Shown: in pieces, positions 14,002-39,691 of the stretch | How the letters are laid out: each line of letters starts with the position of its first letter | Numbering within the stretch: the stretch's first letter is position 1 | Virus record (IMG/VR): IMGVR_UViG_3300021085_000079 | Coordinates: 1-39,691 of that record | From: a virus | Length of the DNA stretch: 39,691 nucleotides | Strand: one strand, 5' to 3' | Position numbers and translations under genes: made by a program | The notes under the pieces: generated by a model | Databases searched by the model: none | The model's input: only the letters and a program-made list of their open reading frames with translations | Told to the model about the DNA's origin: nothing

Positions 14002-14670
14002 TTAATATTTAATACAAGCTAGAAATGCAATGTTTCTTGGACGTGTTTCTGAACCTCCAGAGCCGCCAATATGTTGCCCATCAGTATTTGATGGTGTTCC
14101 TGTAAACGCTGACCTGTTTGCTTGACCTCCATTACTGTCCATGAGTATACCGCCGCCGCCAGTATCGTTGGTAACATTAAATTCAGTGCCCCGCCTTGAA
14201 GGGTGACCGTGTAGCTTAAATTCATCAGCCTGTGCAGAACCAAAAGAACGACTGGTATCAATTCCGCGCGCGTCATCCCATCCACGCATAAACTCACCAC
14301 GAAGGTCGGGGACATTAAAAGTAGAAGATCCATCACCAGCGCCATACGTAGTGCCTATTGCTGCAAACAAATCAGCATAAGTTGTTCTTGATATAGCAGC
14401 ACCATTAGCCTTAATAAAGCCTGTAGGGGCTGTATTAGCTGCATGATAAATTAATGTACCGGCAGGAACTGATGCACTTGATGAACTTGCAGCATCAGTA
14501 ATTCCATAGCCTGATAATGTAGTTGGAGTACTTGTTAAATCTGAGAATGCTACATCTGCAGATACAGTTTGTGAAAGTCCTAATTTTACCCAGCGCGAAC
14601 CATTGTATTTCCAAGTTTTTGATCCTAAAATATATTCATCACCTGTTGTCGGGTTTAATGGATATGGCAT
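14002..14670 (-). CDS. Short tail fibre with collar domain
   Basis: This 222-residue fibre is the simplest complete collar fibre here. It has an NPTTGDEYIL N-domain (1-35), one DLTSTPTTL repeat and a collar domain (about 70-145, with FNVPDLRGEFMRGWDD). A short variable loop carries HGH and a Gly-rich patch, and the end is RPRNIAFLACIKY. Collar fibres of T4 gp12 type form short trimeric adhesins. The HxH after the collar corresponds in position to the metal-binding pair of T4 gp12. The NPTTG domain shared with the two larger fibres suggests that they attach at the same virion site. GGAGA precedes the ATG. Confidence 0.8.
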   Translation of the reverse strand: MPYPLNPTTGDEYILGSKTWKYNGSRWVKLGLSQTVSADVAFSDLTSTPTTLSGYGITDAASSSSASVPAGTLIYHAANTAPTGFIKANGAAISRTTYADLFAAIGTTYGAGDGSSTFNVPDLRGEFMRGWDDARGIDTSRSFGSAQADEFKLHGHPSRRGTEFNVTNDTGGGGILMDSNGGQANRSAFTGTPSNTDGQHIGGSGGSETRPRNIAFLACIKY

Positions 14671-28318: not shown

Positions 28319-30910
28319 TTGAATAATTTTTACACATCAGTTAATCGGTATGGTAATACTATTTTATATAGAGGCTATACTGAAAATGGTACTCGAATAG
28401 AAGATCGTATTAAATTCGGTCCAACACAATATTTGCCATCGAAAGAACCCACAAAATTTCGTTCTTTCGATGGTGGATATCTAAATGCTATTAAATTTCA
28501 AAAAATGAGTGAGTCAAAAGATTTTCTTGAAACTTATAAAGAAATGGAAGGCGTTAAAGTCTATGGCACTCGAAACTATATCCAACAATTTATTACAGAT
28601 AAATTTCCAGATAATATAAATTTTAATCAAAATCACATTAACGTTGTTAATTTTGATATTGAAGTAGCATCTGATGATGGTTTTCCTATTCCAGAAGAAG
28701 CAGCATATCCTATTATATCAATTGCTCTTAAATCTAGTAAATCTTCTATTTACGAAGTGTGGGGTTTAGGTGAATACGATACAAATAAAACAGAATTAGA
28801 AATGAATGGTGATCTAATCAAGTATCATAAATTTGATACTGAAAAAGCTATGTTAGCTTCCTTTTTACACTATTGGGTAAACAATTATCCAGATGTTATT
28901 ACAGGTTGGCATATTCGTTTCTTTGATATTCCTTATCTTGTAAATCGTATCAAAAATATTGGTACTGAAGAAGCAGCCAATAAACTTTCTCCATGGAAGC
29001 TAGTTAATGATAGACAAATAACTAAGATGGGTCGTACTCAGTATAGTTATGAATTAGTTGGTATTCAAACCGCAGACTATATTGAATTATTCAAAAAGTT
29101 TGGTTATTCATATGGCGCTCAAGAATCTTATAAGCTTGACCATATTGCTTATACAGTCCTCAATGAAAAAAAATTATCTTATGAAGAACATGGTAATCTT
29201 CACAGTTTATATAAAGCTGACCATCAAAAGTTTATTGACTATAATATTAAAGATGTTCAACTTGTAGACCGTATTGATCAAAAGATGGGTCTTATTAATC
29301 TTGGATTGACTATGGCATATAAAGGTGGTGTTAATCTTGGTGATACAATGGGTACAACTTCAATATGGGAATCAATCATTTATCGAAGACTTCTTAAAAA
29401 TAATGTAATATCACCAATTGAACAGATTAAACCATGTATGTATGCTGTTCATGGAGCTACTGAAACTTCAAAGAAAAACCCAGCTGGTAATTTAGATCGT
29501 ACCCGTGAACCACAAAAATCTCACGCAATTGCTGGAGGTTATGTTAAAGATCCACATGTTGGTTCACATGATTGGGTCGTATCATTTGATTTAAATTCTC
29601 TATATCCAAACATAATTGTTCAATCTAATATATCTCCTGAAACTCTTGTAAAAGATAAATCATTTGGTGAATATACCCAAGGTGTTGATCACTATTTTAT
29701 TGATGGTCAGGCTGCTTCTGATGAGTATTCTATATGTGCAAGTGGTGTTCCATTTAGTAAAAATAAGCAAGGTATTATTCCTGAATTAATTGTTGAATAC
29801 TATGCTGAACGTAGTGTAATTAAACAAAAAATGCTTAAAGTAAAACAAGAGTATGAGCAAACAAAAAATACAGCTCTTGAGTCAGAAATTAATCAGCTAG
29901 AAAATAATCAAATGGCTATTAAGATTCTACTTAATTCTTTGTATGGCGCAATGGCAAATAAGTATTTTAAATATTTTGATAATGCTCTTGCCGAAAGTGT
30001 AACTCTTACTGGTCAACTTTCAATAAAGTGGGCTGAAAGAGCTATCAATGTTGAAATGAATAAAATACTTAAAACTAAAGGAAAAGATTATGTTATTGCT
30101 ATTGACACTGACTCAGTCTACATTAATTTTGGTCCTCTTATTGCTCAACTGGCGCCAAAGGACTCTGTTAAAGCATTGGACAAAATTTGTAAGACACACT
30201 TCGAACCCATAATTGCTAAGTCATATGATAAATTATTTCATAGATTAAATGCTTATACTCCTCGTATGGAAATGGGTAGAGAAGTTATAGCTGATCGTGG
30301 CATATGGACAGCAAAGAAAAGATATATTCTCAATGTACATAATAATGAAGGTGTACAATACGCTGAACCAAAACTTAAAATCATGGGGATTGAAGCTATT
30401 AAATCAAGTACTCCCGAAGTAGTTCGTGATAAATTTAAAGAAGCTTTTAAAATAATCGTTACTGGATCTGAACTTGCAACTCGTAAGTTTATAGATAACT
30501 TTAGACAAGAATTTAAATCATTACCTCCTGAAAAAGTATCATTTCCTCGTGGCGTTTCAGAAGTATCCAAATGGCAAGATAGAAATTTAATTTATAAAAA
30601 GGGTACACCAATTCATGTTCGTGGTTCTCTTTTATATAATCATGAAATTAAAGACAAAGCTCTTAATAAGAAATATGATATGATACAAAATGGTGAAAAG
30701 ATTAAATTTACTTATCTTAAGATGCCTAATCCTATTAAAGAAAATGTCATATCCTTTCCTGAATACTTACCACCTGAGCTTAATCTTCATAAATATATAA
30801 ACTATGATATACAATTTAATAAAACTTTTATTGAACCGCTCACGCCAATTCTTGATGCTGTTGGCTGGTCAGTTGAAGATAGAGCAACATTAGAGGATTT
30901 CTTTGGATGA
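28319..30910 (+). CDS. 43: Family B DNA polymerase gp43
   Basis: This 863-residue protein (T4: 898) has a complete exonuclease and polymerase. Exo I is VNFDIEVAS (Asp113, Glu115). Motif A is [20 protein letters not shown], motif B is [16 protein letters not shown], and motif C is AIDTDSVYI. KxY is in AKKRYILNV. The last residues ATLEDFFG match the T4 clamp-binding tail ASLDFLFG. The start is TTG, five bases after GGAGGA. The adjacent ATG at 28314 is out of frame and stops after one codon. It overlaps the PEPCK gene by 4 bases. Confidence 0.97.
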
Positions 30911-35824: not shown

Positions 35825-36113
35825 TGATGCTTGGAATAGTGTCATGGATGCAGATATTAATCCTTTAAGAAATATACCAAATCTTCAAGTTAGACATTTG
35901 ATTATGCAGATACTTGCTTGGATGTGGGTATCTGTATGCTCTATGTATTTAGGAAGCATTATGTTTTGGGGTATTAACGCAATCGTTCATACATTGCTAT
36001 TAGCAGCAATTGTGATTACAGTCGGCACATTTGATACTGCAAAGCGCAATCCTAAGCTTTTTGATAGAATTGATGGATATAACGGTCGTAGAAATAATGG
36101 AGAACACGACTAA
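35808..36113 (+). CDS. Small membrane protein
   Basis: This 101-residue protein has two hydrophobic segments, about 30-54 (LIMQILAWMWVSVCSMYLGS) and 56-74 (INAIVHTLLLAAIVITVG), joined by a short turn. A charged tail follows (FDTAKRNPKLFDRIDGYNG). The N-terminal MREFINDAWNSVMDAD is amphipathic. It has no known motif. It probably lies in the host inner membrane with both ends on one side. It sits between cupin and cytidylyltransferase genes with overlaps of 17 and 1 bases. A link to envelope or lipid-linked precursors is only a guess. Confidence 0.65.
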   Translation: MREFINDAWNSVMDADINPLRNIPNLQVRHLIMQILAWMWVSVCSMYLGSIMFWGINAIVHTLLLAAIVITVGTFDTAKRNPKLFDRIDGYNGRRNNGEHD

Positions 36114-36520
36114 TGAAAGTGGGATTTACTTGTAGTACTTTTGATTTACTTCATGCTGGACATGTATCTATGCTCAGAGAAGCAAAGTCACAGTGTGACT
36201 ATTTGATCTGCGGTCTGCAAGTAGATCCTACCATCGATCGTAAAGAAAAGAATGCTCCAATTCAAAATATTGTGGAAAGACAGGTACAGCTCAATGCAAT
36301 AAAATATGTAGATGAAGTGATTATTTATTGTACAGAAAGCGATTTATGTGATATAATAAACATGTATCCAATTGATGTTAGGATACTTGGTGAAGAATAT
36401 AGGAGTAAAGATTTTACTGGTAAAGATGAATGTCGACAACGTGGTATAGATCTTTATTTTAATAAACGTGATCATCGCTTTTCAACAAGCGATCTAAGAA
36501 AGAGAGTATGTGAGCAATGA
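36113..36520 (+). CDS. Glycerol-3-phosphate cytidylyltransferase-like (TagD family)
   Basis: This 135-residue nucleotidyltransferase matches the single-domain TagD size. The catalytic motif is FDLLHAGHVSML (HxGH at 15-18 region), followed by ERQVQLNAIKYVDEVI, RILGEEYRSKDFTGKDEC, and the C-terminal FSTSDLRKR (the R/S-S-T-x-x-R motif). It transfers CMP from CTP to an alditol or sugar phosphate. Phage RB69 carries a similar gene near its cytosine-arabinosylation pathway. Here the substrate could be glycerol-3-phosphate, mannose/pentose phosphate or inositol phosphate. It is coupled by 4 bases to gp42. Confidence 0.85.
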   Translation: MKVGFTCSTFDLLHAGHVSMLREAKSQCDYLICGLQVDPTIDRKEKNAPIQNIVERQVQLNAIKYVDEVIIYCTESDLCDIINMYPIDVRILGEEYRSKDFTGKDECRQRGIDLYFNKRDHRFSTSDLRKRVCEQ

Positions 36521-37206
36521 AAATGAATTCTGTAAAAGATGTTCGTCAATTCTTTATTGATGAATTAAATGATGAAGCATTTACTATTGATAAAACTGGC
36601 GCACGCACTATTGAAATGATTGGTGCATCATTTATTGCTGATGAGCCATCTATATTTGGTAAACCGTCTCTTTCATATATTCAAAAAGAATTGGATTGGT
36701 ATGATAGCCAATCAACTAATATCTTTGATATTAATAAAGAGTCTGGCGAAGATGCTCCAGCTGCTTGGAAATATGCTGCTAATACACATGGTGAAATTAA
36801 TTCAAACTATGGTCATCTAATTTATTCGAATAAATACTATGATCAATATCAAAACGTATTGGCTGAACTAGACAAAAATCCCGATGGTAGACGTGCTTCT
36901 ATGATCTACAATCGGCCTTCTATTTGGGTGGAGTTTAACGAAAATGGAAAATCTGATTTCATTTGTACTAACGCTGTCACTTACTATATTCGTGATAATT
37001 TACTTCATTGTGTAGTCCAAATGCGGTCTAATGATGTGGTGTTTGGTTATAAGAACGATTATGCTTGGCAACGACATGTACAAAATAAATTAGTAGATGA
37101 TTTAAATAATATCTGTATAGTTAAAGATCCAGTTAGCGCTGGTATGATGATCTGGCAGGTACAAAATCTTCACGTATATGAAAGGCATTTTAATCTTGTC
37201 AAATAA
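36517..37206 (+). CDS. 42: dCMP hydroxymethylase gp42
   Basis: This 229-residue protein (T4 gp42: 246) matches closely: DKTGARTIEMIGASFIADEP, GEINSNYGHLIYS, DFICTNAV with the nucleophile Cys, QMRSNDVVFGYKNDYAWQRH, and NLHVYERHFNLV. The Asp in KNDYAW replaces the Asn of thymidylate synthases and marks dCMP as substrate. It makes 5-hydroxymethyl-dCMP from dCMP and methylene-THF, so the virion DNA is probably hmC-modified. It ends about 17 residues earlier than T4 gp42. It overlaps the dCMP deaminase gene. Confidence 0.92.
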   Translation: MKMNSVKDVRQFFIDELNDEAFTIDKTGARTIEMIGASFIADEPSIFGKPSLSYIQKELDWYDSQSTNIFDINKESGEDAPAAWKYAANTHGEINSNYGHLIYSNKYYDQYQNVLAELDKNPDGRRASMIYNRPSIWVEFNENGKSDFICTNAVTYYIRDNLLHCVVQMRSNDVVFGYKNDYAWQRHVQNKLVDDLNNICIVKDPVSAGMMIWQVQNLHVYERHFNLVK

Positions 37207-37711
37207 TTATAATGATATGAAAGATAGAGAGAATGCTCATAAAAAAAATGATAAAGCTTTTCTTGCCCGACAACATAAGTGGGATCTAAGATATTTAGAG
37301 CTAGCTAAAACTATTGCTGGATGGTCTAAAGATCCTTCAAGCCAAATTGGAGCCATTGCTGTAGGTTCAAAAGGGCAAGTCTTAGCTCAAGGATATAATG
37401 GATTTCCTCGAGGAATGCTTGATAGTCCTAACCTATATAGTAATCGAAAAGAGAAATATGTTAGAATTGTTCATGCTGAAATGAACATGATTTATAATGC
37501 ATCTTTTAATGGTGTGTGTTTAAATAAATCAACTGTTTACGTATCAGGTCTTCCTACTTGTTCTGATTGCGCAAAAGGACTTATTCAAGTAGGAGTTGCT
37601 GAACTAGTCATGCCACGGCAAAAGATTGATGAAAAATGGCATGACTCATGGCAAAGATCTAAGTCATATTACAAAGAAGCTGGTCTTAAATATAGATGGG
37701 TTAATTTGTAA
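37196..37711 (+). CDS. cd: dCMP deaminase
   Basis: This zinc deaminase of about 171 residues has WSKDPSSQIGAIAVG, ARGYNGFPRG-type text (QGYNGFPRGM), the VHAEMN catalytic motif and the zinc pair PTCSDCAKG. It converts dCMP to dUMP for dTMP synthesis. In T4 it is allosterically tuned by hm-dCTP and dTTP. The start is uncertain. TTG 37196 follows AAAGG by 10 bases and was preferred to ATG 37178 (no ribosome site, deeper in gp42) and ATG 37217. It ends the operon, and a new promoter follows in 9 bases. Confidence 0.9.
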   Translation: MSNNYNDMKDRENAHKKNDKAFLARQHKWDLRYLELAKTIAGWSKDPSSQIGAIAVGSKGQVLAQGYNGFPRGMLDSPNLYSNRKEKYVRIVHAEMNMIYNASFNGVCLNKSTVYVSGLPTCSDCAKGLIQVGVAELVMPRQKIDEKWHDSWQRSKSYYKEAGLKYRWVNL

Positions 37712-37719
37712 ACTTTTAG

Positions 37720-37748
37720 TTTACATTTTATTAAAAATGTAATATAAT
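37720..37748 (+). promoter_or_regulatory. Promoter TTTACA-N17-TATAAT before inositol-phosphate synthase
   Basis: TTTACA (37720-37725) and TATAAT (37743-37748) have an exact 17-base spacer. The predicted leader to the ATG at 37839 is about 84 bases, the longest of the early-type promoters here. Confidence 0.85.
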
Positions 37749-37777
37749 ATAATCACTAAAACTATTATAACTATAAC

Positions 37778-37809
37778 GTGAGCTACTCTGCTTATGCAGC
37801 CAATCTCAC
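37778..37809 (+). promoter_or_regulatory. Structured leader of the inositol-phosphate synthase gene
   Basis: GTGAG (37778-37782) pairs with CTCAC (37805-37809), and inside it CTGC/GCAG (37788-37791, 37796-37799) closes a TTAT loop with 5-base internal bulges. TTTAAAA follows. It could be an attenuator, a protein-binding site or part of an RNA switch. Only the pairing is seen. Confidence 0.45.
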
Positions 37810-37838
37810 TTTAAAAAACTGAAATAAAGGAAGTAAAA

Positions 37839-39134
37839 ATGAAGAAAATTAAAGTTGGTATTATTGGTGTAGGAAACTGCGCACAGTCGCTTGTTGAAGG
37901 CATGCAATATTATAATGAAAATCCAAATGATACTGTAGGTCTTATGTATCCAGATATTGGTGGATACGATACAAGCTCTGTTGAATTTGTAATTGGCTTT
38001 GACGTAGACCGTCGTAAAGTTAATCGTCCTCTTATTGAAGCTTTACGAGCAAAACCAAATTGCGCAATGAATCATGTTCAAGAAATATTAGAATCTGGAA
38101 ACAATTCACCTGGAGCTGTAGCCAAAGGCGCTCAAGTGTATTCAAGCCCAACACTTGATGGTGTTGCAGAATGGATGGAATATTACCCTGAAGAAGTATC
38201 ATTTAGAGTTGGTGCTGAATCAGCTAAGTCATTTGATGATATTGTTAGTCTTATCAAATCATCTGGTGTCGAAGTTCTTATTAATTATCTGCCAGTTGGA
38301 TCTGAAAAAGCTACTCGCTTTTATTTAGACGTTGCTCTTGCTGCTGAAGTACATTTTGTTAATTGTATTCCAACATTGATTGAAACAAAAGAAACTCAAG
38401 AAATCGAACAAAAATTTATTAATGCAGGTCTTACTTTTGTTGGATCTGATATGCGTTCAGCTTGGGGAGCATCTCGTTTATCTGAGGTATTGCAGGGTGC
38501 AATGATTGATGGTGGTTTACATGTTACATATCATACTCAAACCAATCGAATTGGTGGAGCAACCCAAGGCCGTGAACATATTCGTAATGGTGTTACATCA
38601 AACACTGACTTTATTAATATGGCTGAAAAAGAGCGTTTACATAATAAACATATCTCAAAAGAAAATGTTTTAAAAGGACAGAATACTGTCCGTGGTGTTG
38701 ACTATGCCGGTGATACACTATATGCCGGCCCATCTCTAACTGTTATGCAAAAACCAGGTGGTGATTATGTTGGATCTGATAATAAGATTGCAGATCTTGA
38801 TATTGTAGCATTTGGATTTGGTGGAGCTCGTTATACTCTTCAAGCTAGACTATCATGTCAAGACTCACCAAACTCAGGTGGTGTTGTTATATCAGCAATT
38901 CGTTTCTGTCGAGTAGCTGCTGAAATGGGAATTGTTGGCATTCTTCGTGGGCCAAGTGCTTATACACAAAAAACTCCACCTGTTCAGCTTACAACATCTG
39001 ATGCAAAGTTTGAATGTGATGCCCTTGCTCGTCGAGAGCTTACTAATATGACTCGGCCACAATTAGCTAAATCTAATCCTAAAGCTAAAGATTTGCCATA
39101 TACATACCAAGATGGAAAAACTGATTATGAATAA
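37839..39134 (+). CDS. Inositol-3-phosphate synthase (Ino1 family)
   Basis: This 431-residue NAD-dependent enzyme is of the bacterial/archaeal Ino1 type. It has a Rossmann start KVGIIGVGNCAQSLVEGMQY, VEFVIGFDVDRRKVN, LINYLPVGSEKATRFY, FVNCIPTLI, GSDMRSAWGAS, and a long core with FINMAEKERLHNKHISKE. The hallmark CQDSPNSGGVVISAIRF is followed by QKTPPVQ. It converts glucose-6-phosphate to inositol-3-phosphate. It has its own promoter and structured leader, and AAAGGAAG precedes the ATG. An 8-base overlap (ATGAATAA) links it to a HAD-like gene that could be its phosphatase. Confidence 0.9.
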   Translation: MKKIKVGIIGVGNCAQSLVEGMQYYNENPNDTVGLMYPDIGGYDTSSVEFVIGFDVDRRKVNRPLIEALRAKPNCAMNHVQEILESGNNSPGAVAKGAQVYSSPTLDGVAEWMEYYPEEVSFRVGAESAKSFDDIVSLIKSSGVEVLINYLPVGSEKATRFYLDVALAAEVHFVNCIPTLIETKETQEIEQKFINAGLTFVGSDMRSAWGASRLSEVLQGAMIDGGLHVTYHTQTNRIGGATQGREHIRNGVTSNTDFINMAEKERLHNKHISKENVLKGQNTVRGVDYAGDTLYAGPSLTVMQKPGGDYVGSDNKIADLDIVAFGFGGARYTLQARLSCQDSPNSGGVVISAIRFCRVAAEMGIVGILRGPSAYTQKTPPVQLTTSDAKFECDALARRELTNMTRPQLAKSNPKAKDLPYTYQDGKTDYE

Positions 39135-39546
39135 TTATGTAGAGCAAAATGCTGTTCCAGATAAAATAATTAATTCTTTTGATATTGATGGTGTTATTTT
39201 TATGGATAAATATGATGGTGTTTATCCAGGTGATAGAGATGTTATCATTACAGGTCGATCTAATGAAGAAAGATCTGAAACTGAAGCAATGCTTAAATCT
39301 AAAAATATAACCAATGAATTGTATTTAAATCCAACACCATTTGAATCAAAATCAAGAGAAGACTCCGGCCGCCATAAAGGCCGGACACTTTTTCATCTTG
39401 AAACACTTGGATATAGATTTGGAATACATTATGAAGATGATCCAATTCAAGCAGAAATCATTAGAAAAATGATGCCCCACATTAATGTGGTATTGCTACA
39501 ACACGATTTAGTTGAAAAGGAAAATGTGCGGCATGATTTCGCTTAA
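39127..39546 (+). CDS. HAD-like small protein
   Basis: This 139-residue protein has a HAD-type motif I NSFDIDGVIFMD and a motif II-like DVIITGRSNEER, then an acidic YEDDPIQAEI resembling motif IV. This is a minimal HAD phosphatase or nucleotidase pattern. It is translationally coupled to inositol-phosphate synthase, which suggests dephosphorylation of inositol phosphate or another small phosphate ester. ATG 39127 gives the 8-base overlap style seen elsewhere. ATG 39112, five codons earlier, is also possible. Confidence 0.65.
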   Translation: MNNYVEQNAVPDKIINSFDIDGVIFMDKYDGVYPGDRDVIITGRSNEERSETEAMLKSKNITNELYLNPTPFESKSREDSGRHKGRTLFHLETLGYRFGIHYEDDPIQAEIIRKMMPHINVVLLQHDLVEKENVRHDFA

Positions 39547-39691
39547 AACGTTAAAACAGACCCGTGATCCAAATAATTTTAATTATTTTAATAAGTGGGT
39601 TCTTGATTTTTTTAAAAGAGAAACTTTAAGAGAAAGGGGTCAAATTAACGAATACGAATACTCTGAAGATTTTGGCCCTGCAATGAGACAA
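39533..39691 (+). CDS. Hypothetical protein, N-terminal part
   Basis: An open frame starts at ATG 39533, inside the end of the HAD-like gene, and runs off the window (53 codons). It reads MISLKTLKQTRDPNNFNYFN, then WVLDFFKRETLRERGQ and an acidic stretch. AAGG at 39517-39520 is a weak ribosome site. No family is recognised from this fragment. Confidence 0.5.
   Translation, partial: MISLKTLKQTRDPNNFNYFNKWVLDFFKRETLRERGQINEYEYSEDFGPAMRQ

Follow-up and report, generated by a model that had tools for sequence, protein, structure and literature searches.

Viral inositol-phosphate synthase genes lie in DNA-modification cassettes behind a conserved leader RNA and may serve phages that coat their DNA with inositol

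Why does a marine T4-like phage carry a gene for the synthesis of inositol phosphate? The question is raised by a 39,691-nt virus record of IMG/VR (IMGVR_UViG_3300021085_000079, positions 1 to 39,691), in which an ino1 gene is followed by a gene for a small HAD-like protein (Table 1). The whole of this stretch is referred to as the window, and our analysis of it and of its relatives is sequence-based throughout. The original prediction regarded Ino1 as unusual in a phage, and the gene pair could be taken for a stand-alone unit of inositol metabolism. Neither view was supported. At least 511 IMG/VR viral contigs encode Ino1 relatives (a lower bound, as these are the contigs passing the relative test in one scan), and the unit makes up the forward portion of a cassette for DNA hypermodification, which runs past the window end. 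Among 50,697 phage records, Ino1 was found in 18, comprising 16 of Stenotrophomonas (Menderavirus) and two of Caulobacter (Cr30), and the HAD protein was found in the same 18.

Table 1. Positions of the features discussed in the text, in window coordinates.
Feature	Position	Strand	Basis of assignment
DNA polymerase	28319..30910	+	gp43-like by position and family cluster; C-terminus ...RATLEDFFG
TagD/HldE-type cytidylyltransferase	36113..36520	+	PF01467 E 1.3e-12; NCBIfam
dCMP hydroxymethylase, T4 gp42 type	36517..37206	+	T4 1b49 E 1.3e-70; Asp179 equivalent kept
dCMP deaminase	37178..37711	+	PF00383 E 3.2e-15; phrog_174
Promoter-like TTTACA-17-TATAAT	37720..37748	+	11/12 match; consensus match only
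TATAACTA, T4-late-promoter-like box directly 5′ of hairpin	37766..37773	+	tentative
Conserved leader RNA	37777..37833	+	comparative evidence; without Rfam match
Ino1, myo-inositol-1-phosphate synthase homologue	37839..39134	+	1gr0 E 4.7e-48; PF01658; invariant residues
Small capless HAD phosphatase-like protein	39127..39546	+	four motifs; AF2 model; linkage to ino1
HMUDK_hel-family protein, start only, cut by window end	39533..39691	+	frame open from TTG 39512; continues in L017

The Ino1 protein (431 aa) matches Mycobacterium tuberculosis Ino1 over residues 3-391, which is almost its whole length, and scores 37.7 bits against PF01658 (cut-off 27). The NAD motif GxGxxx is kept, as are the active-site residues K270, K274, K316, K378, D204, D314 and D342, whose roles we take to be those of the yeast and archaeal enzymes. 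All of them align with 1gr0 and are invariant in 16 diverse phage sequences. The original prediction had been made to depend on the NAD- and substrate-binding residues, and the NAD loop is intact, as are the lysines and aspartates of the active site. Ino1 scores 197.2 bits against TIGR03450, the equivalog model of mycothiol-type (actinobacterial) INO1, and thus falls below its cut-off of 638.

The genes downstream of the window were identified in locus L017 (IMG/VR 3300048118_000360), which matches the final 1,600 bases of the window without a difference and extends beyond it with the HMUDK_hel protein, then a BGT/SGNH-like protein, then a C5-methyltransferase-like (C5MT-like) gene. The order gp42-dCMP deaminase-ino1-HAD-HMUDK_hel-BGT/SGNH-C5MT is that of most loci. 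The window gp42 is clearly of the T4 dCMP hydroxymethylase type (E 1.3e-70, versus at best 3e-8 for thymidylate synthases), and the aspartate equivalent to T4 Asp179 is present in all 52 relatives where the position is readable. The HMUDK_hel protein of L017 (365 aa) contains the helical domain PF18723 (38.3 bits, cut-off 25, E 1.3e-9) and no P-loop kinase domain; the main cassette likewise lacks the P-loop kinase that is usually paired with HMUDK_hel. The C-terminal half of the BGT/SGNH protein has the SGNH-hydrolase fold (Z up to 11.9), and its N-terminal half resembles T4 beta-glucosyltransferase weakly (PF09198 E 0.015; Foldseek E 5e-4, TM 0.28). A gene for a TagD/HldE-type cytidylyltransferase, which might activate a polyol phosphate, recurs near ino1 in L292, L296, L312, L322, L334, L344 and L092, in two contexts. 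A ferredoxin-like 111-aa gene is present between the dCMP deaminase gene and ino1 in L003-L009 (e.g. L008 7517-7852).

The C5MT-like protein matches PF00145 (E 1.1e-18) from profile position 25 onwards. Its base-attacking motifs IV (PC), VI (EN) and VIII (QxRxR) are each kept in 42 of 44 sequences. The SAM motif I FxGxG occurs in none of the 44, and PLIGGE stands in its place in 43. This family with an altered cofactor motif may catalyse a different reaction. C5 methyltransferases couple nucleophiles to hydroxymethylcytosine in vitro, and we speculate that such a coupling would fit the altered motif.

DNA base-modification genes are found near ino1 in 131 of 132 viral loci and the HAD gene in 123; many of these loci are closely related, and the counts are not those of independent events. 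The stronger point is that ino1 occurs in three contexts with differing gene orders. The window-type arrangement, or parts of it, accounts for 113 loci, a TET/ADDT context for 13 and a 7-deazaguanine context for five; the remaining locus, without neighbours, is a 1.7-kb contig. The TET/ADDT context, which includes Cr30, combines Tet_JBP (E 6.9e-23) and/or amino acid:DNA transferase (ADDT, E 4.4e-20) genes with FkbM, glycosyltransferase or kinase genes. In the 7-deazaguanine context ino1 lies within FolE, QueC and TGT clusters. A search of these genomes gave no gp42, TET, ADDT or HMUDK_hel match, so a single pyrimidine scheme does not fit all contexts. None of 79 cellular ino1 loci carries the HAD gene or a modification cassette. 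In Cr30 (L002 2706-4034, 6943-7869) the Tet_JBP match falls on a gene annotated as SNF2 DNA repair protein, and the 308-aa gene before ino1 shows a weak match to TET-associated glycosyltransferases and a clamp-like C-terminal peptide.

A C-terminal peptide sets the DNA-acting proteins of the cassette apart from the soluble supply enzymes. The C-terminus of the phage DNA polymerase reads ...TLEDFFG, a LEDFF-type peptide; in the RB69 polymerase it is a peptide of this kind that binds the sliding clamp. The same kind of peptide ends 96% of the DNA polymerases, 91% of the HMUDK_hel, 88% of the BGT/SGNH, 95% of the C5MT-like and 86% of the TET proteins, as well as all TGT proteins, compared with 27 of 1180 other proteins. 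Among the supply enzymes it was seen in one of 81 Ino1, one of 57 gp42 and one of 60 deaminase sequences and in no HAD protein. The peptide probably mediates clamp binding.

Taken together, these data are compatible with a T4-like hypermodification cassette in which Ino1 and the HAD protein would supply inositol or inositol phosphate for hydroxymethylcytosine and the leader would gate ino1 translation; we give this reading a probability of about 0.58. Ino1 would convert glucose-6-phosphate to inositol-1-phosphate, from which the HAD protein would probably strip the phosphate. In parallel gp42 would make 5-hydroxymethyl-dCMP, so that hydroxymethylcytosine should enter the phage DNA. The transferase-like HMUDK_hel, the BGT-like/SGNH and the C5MT-like proteins would then act at the replication fork, joining inositol or one of its derivatives to the hydroxymethyl base. 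Finally, the structured leader, with its conserved tail right next to the ribosome-binding site, would gate translation of ino1, most simply through feedback by the pathway product, which we infer that it senses. A literature search, with the key hypermodification papers outside its reach, returned no inositol in phage DNA and no nucleoside analysis of these DNAs. In a bolder version, widespread T4-like phages would place inositol or inositol phosphate on hydroxymethylcytosine by means of an enzyme of C5MT-like or HMUDK_hel type, with base activation but no ordinary SAM methylation, and would check the supply by the first cyclitol-sensing riboswitch class. In all its parts together this version is unlikely.

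The control region of ino1 bears on the last step. The original prediction assigned to the unit a strong promoter of its own. The promoter-like site 5′ of ino1 is indeed the best in the region, but such sites are no commoner than in shuffled sequence (14 found, 16.9 expected). A transcript start near 37755 behind this site gives a leader of about 84 bases, in agreement with the length first proposed, and the distinct control region supports the suggestion that the unit is separate from the gp42 operon and may be tuned separately. Boxes resembling TATAACTA tentatively precede the hairpin in many relatives.

Within the leader, helix P1 (37778-37782/37805-37809) encloses an invariant CUAC (37783-37786), helix P2 (37788-37791/37796-37799) and the bases NCAA (37800-37803). 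The tail AACUGAAAU (37817-37825) and the Shine-Dalgarno sequence (37827-37833) follow. The aligned leaders have the same order: P1, CUAC, P2, NCAA, P1′, AACUGAWAU, Shine-Dalgarno, AUG. The hairpin 37778-37809 folds at -11.8 kcal/mol. Since folding of the window leader as a single sequence was not significant (z -1.39), it was not used as evidence, and the case for the structure was built on comparative data. A MAFFT alignment of all leaders misaligned P1′ and was replaced by a core alignment (A6) and by strings of equal length with the variable loops removed (A8). Over 30 distinct aligned leaders, 91% of cells are paired, compared to 63% after shuffling and 26-36% after sliding. Double-sided changes numbered 58 (16 shuffled, at most 13 slid), and the covariation score was 0.693 (0.202 shuffled, at most 0.081 slid). 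The P1′ site in A8 was picked by complementarity, which favours pairing; this was controlled by the shuffles and by a matched-versus-mismatched test, where all ten distinct P1 strands found their own complement as against 13% of mismatched strands. P1 occurs in 21 distinct sequences, nearly all fully complementary, and P1 and P2 were found together in 53 of 72 leaders versus five in shuffles. Three unique leaders gave no P1 call: contig ends truncate two of them, and the third (L032) is a degenerate form. The structured hairpin originally proposed is thus borne out by covariation and pairing across relatives.

The element appears to be restricted to ino1. Model R1, built from these same leaders and with rough E-values, placed the leader before ino1 in most of 80 loci (0.92 Mb), with all matches of E <1 located there. 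Among 100 loci retrieved with a loose pattern there were ten strong matches, each within a few tens of bases of an Ino1 start codon. In the whole genomes of the phages Ps15 and Cr30 the best R1 match is a weak one and lies immediately 5′ of ino1. We found no confident copy elsewhere, none at the 79 cellular ino1 loci and no match to any of the 4227 covariance models of Rfam 15. The only occurrence in 80 loci from a bacterial and archaeal genome collection (L200) is a phage contig in a MAG. Judged by these comparisons, the leader is an RNA element of phages, not previously described, that serves a single metabolic gene.

What the leader might recognise is less certain. It is a conserved, covarying structure directly 5′ of the start codon, as a riboswitch would be, and no inositol riboswitch was reported in the literature searched. 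It could also be imagined as the operator of a phage-encoded protein, either a RegA-like repressor or a protein of the cassette, instead of a metabolite riboswitch. T4-like phages use translational repressors, and the element was seen at ino1 only and in phages only. Yet the same invariant bases accompany Ino1 proteins from different parts of the tree (L001, L002), so that Ino1 itself is an unlikely ligand; autoregulation by Ino1 through the leader was judged unlikely as well. We hold the operator to be a serious possibility of somewhat less than even weight. A Watson-Crick pseudoknot between tail and loop was sought by eye and was not conserved; the invariant tail showed no conserved Watson-Crick partner.

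The distribution of the leader also bears on the origin of the enzyme. In a maximum-likelihood tree 18 phage Ino1 sequences cluster in a single clade (100/100). The enzyme of the Stenotrophomonas phage (L001) joins bacterial MAG sequences, and that of Cr30 (L002) forms a long branch. The tree, proposed at the outset as a means of finding the donor, thus pointed to none for the main phage clade, and associated only the Stenotrophomonas phage enzyme with bacterial MAGs. Because leader and HAD gene are common to separate Ino1 lineages, they travel with the module and not with a single Ino1 lineage, unless the deep branches are misplaced.

The HAD gene is coupled to ino1 as originally described. 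Its frame is open from ATG 39112, and the in-frame ATG 39127 gives the 8-base overlap with ino1 that had been noted; in most loci of relatives the overlap is 1-26 bases. The linkage is nearly constant (74 of 83 loci). All four motifs (DxD, T, K, DD) are present, kept in 75-77 of 77 homologues, with D24, D26, T47, K89, D109 and D110 invariant. An action as inositol-phosphate phosphatase is plausible. An action on phosphate borne by DNA or nucleotides, for instance on a modified-base intermediate, is suggested by the AF2 model, the nearest fold of which is the T4 polynucleotide kinase 3′-phosphatase domain, and by the PHROG assignment as polynucleotide kinase. We regard it as rather unlikely: the HAD gene follows ino1 in every context, including that of 7-deazaguanine, and its product does not end in the clamp-type peptide seen in the DNA-acting proteins. 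A profile of the HAD alignment gave no meaningful match to PDB sequences. In phage Ps15 (L001 9365-9736) the HAD partner of Ino1 is annotated as phosphoribosyltransferase or polynucleotide kinase. The HAD coding sequence of the window contains a strong terminator-like hairpin (39364-39385), in which TCCGGCCGCCATAAAGGCCGGA is followed by CACTTTTT.

Related phages carry other genes in the place of ino1 and HAD. Homologues of BGT/SGNH and HMUDK_hel without Ino1 were found in 19 Aeromonas phage records (44RR2.8t, 31), and their substrate need therefore not be inositol. In 16 of 21 contigs showing both genes, ino1 lies between DNA polymerase and uvsX, as do the proposed arabinose-supply genes of RB69 (PMC6024577). 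From this shared place and the exchange of supply genes among relatives, Ino1-HAD appears to be one supply module among several that can replace each other. In Aeromonas phage 31 (L347 4408-8388) BGT/SGNH and HMUDK_hel are fused in PHG31ORF233c (795 aa, clamp-like end). This gene adjoins one for an SGLT-type sodium/sugar symporter, an odd neighbour for a DNA-modifying protein of a lytic phage; the symporter itself is present in 19 Aeromonas records. In Stenotrophomonas phage IME13 (L350 2273-6050) UDP-galactopyranose mutase is encoded a few genes upstream of the BGT/SGNH homologue, in a cluster with an unmatched 358-aa protein, possibly a glycosyltransferase; the cluster suggests galactofuranose on DNA.

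Such neighbours of BGT/SGNH in phages without Ino1, a sugar symporter or UDP-galactopyranose mutase, raise the alternative that Ino1-HAD belongs to the cassette and the DNA nevertheless receives a sugar or sugar conjugate, inositol being only an acceptor or intermediate as in galactinol, or that another cyclitol phosphate is made. A GT4-family glycosyltransferase gene is inserted before ino1 in L011-L015 and L297, and the aristeromycin cyclitol synthase (6k96), which makes a five-membered cyclitol, is an Ino1 homologue. However, Ino1 clearly resembles the M. tuberculosis inositol synthase more than the latter (167 versus 101 bits) and keeps the lysines and aspartates of inositol synthase, and we find this alternative improbable. 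Least likely of all is that ino1 is an auxiliary metabolic gene (inositol serving as an osmolyte, which would suit the marine setting of this metabolic enzyme, in host lipids or signalling, or in NAD/phosphate balance) with modification genes beside it by chance, for Ino1-HAD is kept inside three unrelated DNA-modification contexts in at least three gene orders and the clusters showed no further inositol enzymes.

If the preferred reading, inositol on hydroxymethylcytosine, is correct, hundreds of viral ino1 genes would be explained as counter-defence chemistry and not as generic auxiliary metabolism. It predicts, in a form open to test, that DNA bases carry a new chemistry, with a cyclitol attached to a pyrimidine and possibly also present in the 7-deazaguanine phages, and two of the phage groups are already cultured. 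The conserved phage RNA element at this one metabolic gene is new as well. TET-dependent cytosine hypermodification of phage DNA is a known system, and L053-L069 and Cr30 resemble it in combining Tet_JBP with glycosyltransferase and transferases, although here Ino1-HAD and the leader belong to the cassette. The T4/RB69 glucosyl- and arabinosyl-hydroxymethylcytosine modules (PMC6024577) likewise have a dCMP hydroxymethylase, a post-replicative decorating enzyme and supply genes between DNA polymerase and uvsX. Unlike these, the supply here is Ino1-HAD, and the decorators are HMUDK_hel, SGNH-type and C5MT-like proteins with no plain glycosyltransferase. Thymidine hypermodification through 5hmdU DNA kinase (M6, ViI, SP8; PMC6449724, PMC7653180) shares the HMUDK_hel and ADDT families and, in the TET context, a P-loop kinase, whereas here the hydroxymethylase is of the cytosine type, the main cassette is without kinase and Ino1-HAD is present. 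The M. tuberculosis enzyme has the family and catalytic residues in common with phage Ino1, which differs in its insertions, its phage context and its score below the mycothiol equivalog cut-off. The leader resembles the riboswitches and structured RNAs of Rfam 15 as a small 5′-UTR element with conserved unpaired bases beside the Shine-Dalgarno sequence, but belongs to none of those families. One further Ino1-bearing phage contig, L036, carries a permuted alphaproteobacterial tmRNA and a group I intron (1193-1543, 14266-14485).
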